From Pantoea sp. SoEX (GTDB lineage: Bacteria > Pseudomonadota > Gammaproteobacteria > Enterobacterales > Enterobacteriaceae), in assembly GCF_009829945.1 (NCBI RefSeq), contig NZ_SZZT01000001.1:186001-250000 (forward strand): 64,000 nucleotides of DNA, in the 5' to 3' direction. Positions within the stretch are counted from its first letter, which is position 1. Every line of letters starts with the position of its first letter. Under the pieces are notes generated by a model, which did no database searches, was not told the DNA's origin, and was given only the letters and a program-made list of their open reading frames with translations. Of the stretch, positions 29,852 through 57,412 are shown in pieces. A program made the position numbers and the translations under genes.

Positions 29852-30471
29852 TTAGAGTAACATTTTTTTTAATGATAATAGGCGTTCAACAGTATGAACT
29901 ACTACCTGGGTATTTGAATCCACCTCAATATTTGTACAGTAACCTAAACTTTTCTGTCCAATAGTAGTGCGATTTAATGTTTCTGGTATAAGAAAAATAC
30001 AAAAAAATCTTTCAAAAATATTTCCGACTGTTAAGCTAATCCCATCTATTCCAATAAAACCTTTATGGAAAATATACTTCATTTTATCAACATCTTTAAT
30101 TTTTAGCCATAAAACATAACTATTATCTGATTTATTAATTTCGTGAATTTTAGCAGTTGTCATAACATGACCAGACATCAAATGACCTCCTACTTCGTTA
30201 TTTATTTTAGCTGCACGCTCAATATTAACCATATCTCCCTGACATAAATTATTTAAATTACTAATTCTTAATGTTTCATTAATTACGTCAAAACTGACAA
30301 AAACATCATCAATACTAGCTACAGTTAAGCAGCAACCATTTACCATAATAGATGCTCCTAACGCTAAATCGTACGTTAATTTTTTTGGTAGTTTAACTAT
30401 ATAAATATACGGTATTTTTTTTTTTCTATATATACTACTTCGCCTATTCCTTGTACAATTCCAGTAAACAT
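29852..30471 (-). CDS. ribE: Riboflavin synthase alpha chain, frameshifted at a poly(A) tract
   Basis: RibE (ribC in E. coli) dismutates two 6,7-dimethyl-8-ribityllumazines to riboflavin. An ATG at 30471 opens MFTGIVQGIGEVVYIEKK, the conserved N terminus. It runs into G followed by eleven A at 30416-30426, after which the frame reaches a stop. Adding one A restores IPYIYIVKLPKKLTYDLALG and joins the second frame, which continues from MVNGCCLTVA to the natural end at 29852. The remainder, including GGHLMSGHVMTTA and KGFIGIDGISLTVG, is fully conserved across both lumazine-binding repeats. Total length would be about 207 residues (E. coli 213). I read it as one functional gene rescued by slippage, a recent pseudogene, or a homopolymer sequencing error. 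Confidence 0.85.
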
Positions 30472-56546: not shown

Positions 56547-57412
56547 ATGATAAATATTTGGCCATCTCCAGCAAAATTAAATCTTTTTCTTCATATAAAT
56601 AACCGCAGATCAGATGGTTATCATAATTTACAGACTATTTTTCAATTTCTAAATTATAGTGATTTGCTTGAAATAAAATTAAATAATAGTGGGTTAATCT
56701 ATTTAACTACAAATTTTAACAATATACCTAAAGAAAACAATTTGATTATAAAAGCTGCAAATATATTAAAGGTAGCAGCAAAAAAAAAATATCATCTTTA
56801 AATTTAGGTGCAATTATTAATATAAAAAAAAAATTACCCATAGGAGCTGGATTAGGTGGAGGGTCATCTAATGCTGCTACTGTTTTAACAGCACTTAATT
56901 ATTTATGGAAAACTAAATTTACAGTAGATGAATTAGCAAAAATTGGTTTGCAATTGGGAGCTGATGTTCCTATATTTATTTATGGGTTTTCCGCTTTTGC
57001 CGAAGGAATAGGTGAAAAAATACATCCTATTAATCTTCAAGAAAAATGGTATTTGGTTACGTATCCTAACATAAATATTAACACTGCTGATGTTTTTCAA
57101 TACCAAAACTTAAAAAGAAATACAAAGTATTACAGTCTACAAGAACTTTTAAGATTGCCATTTACAAACGATTTTGAGAATGTAATTAGAAGTAATTTTG
57201 CTAAAGTTGATGAGATAATACATTTACTCTCAAAATATGCACCTACCAGATTGACTGGAACAGGATCTTGTGTTTTTTCTGAATTTGATAATAAAGAAAA
57301 TGCCTATCAAGTAATGGATTTTATTCCTAACTATGCTACGGCATTTGTGGCTAAAAGTACTAATATATCCCCTCTGCGTCGTTTATTTATAATGAATAAT
57401 TTATTAAATTAA
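56547..57412 (+). CDS. ispE: 4-diphosphocytidyl-2-C-methylerythritol kinase, frameshifted at a poly(A) tract
   Basis: IspE is a GHMP kinase of the methylerythritol phosphate route to isoprenoids. The ATG at 56547 opens [20 protein letters not shown] and continues to ILKVAAKKK at a ten-A run (56780-56789), where the frame hits a stop after three codons. One extra A restores [21 protein letters not shown] and the ATP-binding [12 protein letters not shown], then the second frame continues to the natural stop, including LGADVPIFI and [13 protein letters not shown]. Restored length is 288 residues (E. coli 283). All motifs on both sides are intact. A second ten-A tract, in frame, lies at 56824-56833. 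It is read as one gene needing slippage, a very recent pseudogene, or a sequencing error. Confidence 0.87.

Follow-up and report, generated by a model that had tools for sequence, protein, structure and literature searches.

The ispE gene of Pantoea sp. SoEX raises the question of whether a gene whose reading frame is broken by a single base is a pseudogene or still yields its enzyme. The gene lies in a window of 64,000 nucleotides, which is the whole stretch of DNA analysed (positions 186,001 to 250,000 of contig NZ_SZZT01000001.1), on a contig with a GC content of 0.267. The bacterium appears to be a stink-bug gut symbiont, its host probably being Edessa oxcartii. Judged by prs, a neighbour of ispE, the best named relative is Candidatus Pantoea edessiphila SoET. 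The studied genome is referred to as G000 and five other genomes of the same genus as G001 to G005; positions are those of the window unless a contig (C) is given.

The split ispE gene

From its open reading frames and profile matches, ispE as a whole spans 56547-57412 on the forward strand. Its N-terminal part of 84 amino acids (56547-56801) matches positions 4-81 of the TIGR00154 profile (E 1.2e-22) and ends at a stop codon (56799-56801) nine bases past a first run of ten A's (run 1, 56780-56789). The C-terminal part (56790-57412, stop at 57410-57412) is read in a different frame and matches positions 90-290 (E 5.7e-56), the two halves together covering positions 4-81 and 90-290 of the 294 in the profile and being intact on either side of the break. 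Searched alone, the piece 56813-57409 scores 190 bits against the ispE cut-off of 138.7, and the C-terminal part aligns with solved IspE structures, e.g. 8qc7 and 1oj4. The frames are offset by the equivalent of one missing A or two extra ones, and alignment with the intact genes of G001, G003 and G004 places a single indel within run 1, which is one A short and would be the slippage site. A second run of ten A's (run 2, 56824-56833, forward strand) stands in the downstream frame; the homologous run is an A9, one short, in the genomes G002, G005 and G074. The 12 residues encoded at 56843-56878, which we take to be the GHMP-kinase ATP-binding motif, read as intact. The frame break at run 1, the in-frame second run and the preserved motif and C-terminal domain had all been claimed by the sequence-only reading, and sequence, frames and the two profile halves confirm them.

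An intact ispE copy elsewhere had been named in that reading as the finding that would speak against it. A search of the whole genome (826,838 bp, 12 contigs) found no second ispE; the only extra GHMP match, at C7:65186, was rejected as such a copy, being the homoserine kinase ThrB (thrB). The other MEP pathway genes checked, dxs, ispF and ispG, are intact in all six genomes of the genus.

Recurrence and constraint in related genomes

Three genomes of the genus (G001, G003 and G004) have an intact ispE, and the other three (G000, G002 and G005) a split one. The alignment places the break at run 1 in G000 and at run 2, there an A9 that is one A short, in G002 and G005; the lesion thus recurs at different runs rather than being a common inherited state. 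A tree built from 42 shared genes joins G000 and G005 as sisters and puts G002 on the other side. Because the run differs and G002 is far from G005 in this tree, the sequences are most simply read as recording three separate events. The comparison with sister strains, proposed earlier as a check on whether the ten-A state is fixed, thus gave a divided answer: the gene is split in half of the six genomes, and the A10 break at run 1 occurs only in G000 of the six.

A survey of 295 genomes of the family was extended by close inspection of eight, chosen for weak or multiple ispE matches among those listed. Four of these (G106, G198, G250 and G152) have one open ispE frame. In G144 (708,439 bp) the gene is split at an A11 at the place of run 1, in G181 (650,317 bp) at an A10 near run 1 and in G074 (1,121,596 bp) at an A9 at run 2, each time one A short; from their small genomes, these three are presumably symbionts. 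The split genes of other genera include some in single-contig genomes. At least five reduced genomes besides G000 thus carry an ispE split one A short, at runs of A9 to A11 just before the ATP-binding motif. In G211 (a genome of 2.1 Mb in 170 contigs), ispE has breaks in several frames and resembles a true pseudogene; it was left out of the verified one-A-short cases.

The downstream half of ispE remains under constraint. For the split pair G000-G005 it gives dN 0.153, dS 0.64 and dN/dS 0.24, compared with dN/dS of 0.28, 0.34 and 0.40 when the intact G001, G003 and G004 are paired with one another; the G004-G005 pair gives 0.39, and pairs including the split G002 range from 0.32 to 0.53, at the top of the values. 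This part of the gene evolves fast in every pair, split or intact, at the 83rd to 100th percentile of dN among the 42 genes. A modest relaxation of constraint in some lineages is possible, because the downstream part is fast everywhere and because of the values of the G002 pairs. The sequence-only reading had spoken of slippage-tolerated decay: tolerance through slippage is supported, and decay is unlikely, since the downstream half shows no clear acceleration relative to intact relatives.

The same lesion in other genes and along the genome

The suggestion that ispE and ribE share an error type and a common cause is supported by at least three further genes of the genome that are one A short. 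Besides ispE, the broken genes of G000 are ribE, dusA, accA and rluD. The riboflavin synthase gene ribE (reverse strand) is one A short at an A11 in the mRNA sense, at 30415-30425, and is open in five relatives; its upstream piece is short and matches the profile weakly (best E 0.0026), and the case also rests on alignment to intact relatives. In dusA (C7:8664), rluD (C8:81164) and accA, an A10 is one A short and both halves are profile-confirmed. Judging from the sequence, fdhD (C11:20409, A10) is probably broken likewise; its upstream piece is unconfirmed and it stands outside the verified count. So does yciC (C4:180578, A9), in which only the C-terminal half matches a profile and the upstream part may be broken too, so that this gene may be truly decaying.

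The accA lesion is common to G000, G001 and G005, three species that form a clade in the 42-gene tree at 77-82% amino-acid identity, and other bases break up the run in the remaining three genomes of the genus. The lesion has thus been long kept between species, as expected of a gene rescued at a poly-A run. After the break, dN/dS among the three is 0.09-0.14, so that accA is under strong purifying selection despite its lesion, and AccA is essential in E. coli. This is the clearest case, as it is hard to imagine that such a gene was kept while truncated.

Elsewhere in the genus, nadK of G005 (C4:27822, reverse strand) is broken at an A10, one A short, and G004 has one-A-short breaks in pqiC (G004:268947) and ppk. 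In G005 nadK the stop codon that directly follows the run overlaps an ATG, which makes reinitiation a possible second route there. The verified cases number 15, namely ispE, ribE, dusA, accA and rluD in G000, accA in G001, ispE in G002, pqiC and ppk in G004, ispE, nadK and accA in G005, and ispE in G144, G181 and G074, with 13 origins if accA is counted as one event. All 15 are one A short. A further 24 A9 runs flagged in G000 stand outside this count.

To place these breaks among long runs in general, we surveyed the poly-A and poly-T runs that could be placed inside genes on the ispE contig of the six genomes. This contig measures 86 to 379 kb, and in G004 the survey took in 300 of its 368 kb; the counts comprise the runs whose frame was clear. 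Out-of-frame poly-A runs were 0/575 at A8, 2/161 at A9, 4/24 at A10 and 1/5 at A11, and out-of-frame poly-T runs in the mRNA sense 0/143 at T8 and 0/29 at T9. The in-frame counts are upper estimates, as matches that overrun a run may hide further breaks. The excess of frame breaks at long A runs is more than chance. The same contigs hold 20 A10 and four A11 runs in frame, together with one A16. The latter, at position 178347 of the 300-kb part of C5 of G004 (reversed), is in frame with the proteins of relatives and is the longest run by far. Two frame flags at runs of length seven (one A7, one T7), each with a single supporting query, were dropped as spurious.

A scan of open reading frame structure over 816,494 of the 826,838 bases of G000, whose length thresholds miss breaks near gene ends (e.g. 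ribE), gave nine candidates. Those at A8 runs, three in all, were dropped: two, presumably def/fmt and znuC/znuB from our own reading of the sequences, were rejected as broken genes and are pairs of neighbouring genes, and the third lies at C4:112807. The scanned bases hold 21 A10 runs, four of which break a gene with both halves profile-confirmed (ispE, dusA, accA and rluD) and one of which probably breaks fdhD; ten (nine poly-A, one poly-T) have an open frame on either side, five are read through near a gene start and one is probably non-coding. The sole A11 run in the surveyed sequence breaks ribE.

Explanations of the lesions and of their direction

We hold it probable, judging from sequence comparisons, that ispE still functions despite lacking one base and is rescued by transcriptional slippage. 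Replication slippage would have caused the lesion by the loss of one A from the run; RNA polymerase would then slip at the A10, adding one A in a share of the transcripts, so that corrected transcripts would yield full-length IspE and the remaining ones the 84-residue fragment, a rescue of this kind being sufficient for the lesion to be tolerated. In this account, the gain of an A in the mRNA and how much full-length enzyme results are what we infer. We favour a living gene because the break lies only at the A10 with both halves intact; because half of the six genomes of the genus, and G144, G181 and G074 as well, carry a split ispE; because dN/dS is not raised in the G000-G005 pair and the accA lesion is common to a clade and constrained; because each of the 15 verified cases lacks one A, Buchnera transcripts gain bases in homopolymers and hisH of G250 is broken alike; and because dxs, ispF and ispG are intact in all six genomes.

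A shift of the ribosome would rescue the same lesions, which counts against slippage of the polymerase: a -1 frameshift on A AAA AAA re-reads one base and leads into the downstream frame. This shift corrects the direction in 15/15 cases, every run has at least nine A's (A9 to A11), so that the slippery A7 is present, and AAA AAA stands in the upstream frame. An AGGAG lies 13-14 bases 5' of run 2 in the split G002 and G005, replaced by AGGTG or TGGTG in the others; its pairing with the anti-Shine-Dalgarno (-6.6 kcal/mol) is the strongest of the 15 sites, and it could be chance or a ribosomal stimulator. However, the 15 sites tested (including fdhD and yciC and leaving out G005 accA and G074 ispE) show no enrichment of Shine-Dalgarno-like pairing (p 0.75) or of downstream folding (p 0.92) relative to 63 controls from G000, all in-frame runs of at least nine A's, and in aphid and ant symbionts the correction sits in the transcripts according to a review (PMC5009743). 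We therefore consider ribosomal correction unlikely. A recent loss, in which ispE has just been inactivated and is too young to decay, is quite improbable. A very young pseudogene would look the same, with one lesion and no other fault, and ispE is fast-evolving across the genus, but this explanation would need one pathway gene to have been lost recently several times over, independently, in six genomes, each time at A9 to A11 and each time one short; the intact dxs, ispF and ispG speak against it, as does the persistence of the same lesion in the essential accA across its clade.

The lesions could also have been created by sequencing or assembly, a true A11 being called A10: all lie in the direction of an undercall and are commoner in longer runs, as undercalling would give. 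Illumina sequencing at the depth given below rarely miscalls an A10 run in the consensus, and for this reason an undercall loses most of its force. The best-matching record, SoEOx (the match being our assignment), was sequenced by Illumina MiSeq 2x300 at 940x, and the genomes of that study were assembled with Unicycler, with SoBr at 430x and SoET at 172x (PMC8032781); the sequencing platform of SoET comes from a separate, earlier paper. In-frame A10, A11 and A16 runs are called in the same contigs, the same accA state is found in three separate genomes, and the ispE lesion occurs in single-contig genomes of other genera. The systematic homopolymer undercall offered by the sequence-only reading as one common cause is, on these grounds, very improbable. 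Least credible of all is an enzyme in two pieces, in which translation restarts downstream and the fragments assemble. The ispE halves are contiguous and both conserved, but the break point differs between genomes, and the first ATG, GTG or TTG in the downstream frame past the break is a TTG at 56948-56950; as this lies past the ATP-binding motif, a restart is unlikely and would give a fragment lacking the motif.

Rescue by transcriptional slippage also bears on the direction of the lesions. No one-A-long break was found among the verified cases and the survey candidates, the sole one-long candidate of the open reading frame scan being the gene pair znuC/znuB. If both directions were equally frequent, the chance of all being one short would be 3e-5 (n=15) or 1.2e-4 (n=13); if replication contracts runs four times in five, it would be 0.035 or 0.055, respectively, so that a strong contraction bias in replication remains a partial alternative and could explain most of the one-short lesions. 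The direction fits an RNA polymerase that inserts A's. In Buchnera transcripts, according to one study (PMC5574713), 151/157 insertions versus 16/57 deletions fall in homopolymer runs (another count in that study is 70 deletions, with 15 in such runs), and the insertion rate in homopolymers rises exponentially with run length; for all sequence of E. coli it reports 921 deletions versus 72 insertions, which counts against slippage as the rescue. We tentatively propose a one-way ratchet, which may quite possibly operate here: because slippage on A runs mostly adds A's, only one-short genes would be rescued, and AT-rich symbionts would collect one-short, not one-long, lesions in essential genes, the lysine-rich stretch before the IspE ATP-binding motif being a recurrent trap in six reduced genomes, most simply through separate events. 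If this is true, one could tell from its direction whether a homopolymer frameshift in a symbiont has left the gene functional.

Rescue of poly-A frameshifts is itself already known from Blochmannia and Buchnera. The histidine gene of an ant symbiont that enters the review cited next is, we assume, hisH. That review gives 12-50% corrected transcripts for this gene and for cell-wall genes of aphid symbionts (PMC5009743), and correction by transcriptional slippage in Blochmannia and Buchnera was reported by Tamas et al. 2008 and Wernegreen et al. 2010, as cited in later papers (PMC3017870). In our own survey, hisH of G250, which would be Blochmannia pennsylvanicus (PMC4389277), is split at an A11, one A short. 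The likeness lies in a reduced, AT-rich insect symbiont, a short indel in an A run, and a gene that is otherwise intact and evolves without acceleration. With Blochmannia vafer it extends to the kind of gene affected (dxs, ribF, dnaG and pth there; ispE, ribE and accA here) and to independent lesions at separate sites within a single gene, which is ytfM there and ispE here (PMC3017870). In contrast, the present lineage is a stink-bug gut symbiont, the ispE lesion extends over several genera and six genomes, and the verified cases are one short without exception.

Two further systems offer partial parallels. In dnaX, -1 ribosomal frameshifting takes place on A AAA AAG; it shares with ispE an A-rich slippery stretch and a direction that would also correct the lesion, but the runs here are longer and of pure A, have no common Shine-Dalgarno-like or structural stimulator and lead to no evident alternative product. 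IS elements use transcriptional slippage on A9 or T9 runs (PMC1088944), and runs of about nine A's there likewise serve as slippage sites joining two frames; there it is an expression device of mobile elements, whereas in ispE, a housekeeping gene, it would make good a lesion. In the literature searched, which covers a minor part of the subscription journals, we found no earlier report of such rescue in ispE or in Pantoea-type symbionts. The repetition of lesions at one spot of ispE in several genera, together with their uniform direction, may be new; this would turn anecdotes into a testable rule on which frameshifts are survivable in reduced genomes. Annotation pipelines tend to label genes of this kind as pseudogenes, so that an essential step drops out of metabolic reconstructions; in the present genome this would affect isoprenoid, riboflavin and fatty-acid synthesis.

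Frame changes lying away from any long homopolymer were also seen, in G005 (C4:161408-161727 and C4:209014), in G001 (288355 on the reverse complement of C5) and at about 135.3 kb in G000 and G003; these are perhaps real pseudogenes or chance matches.
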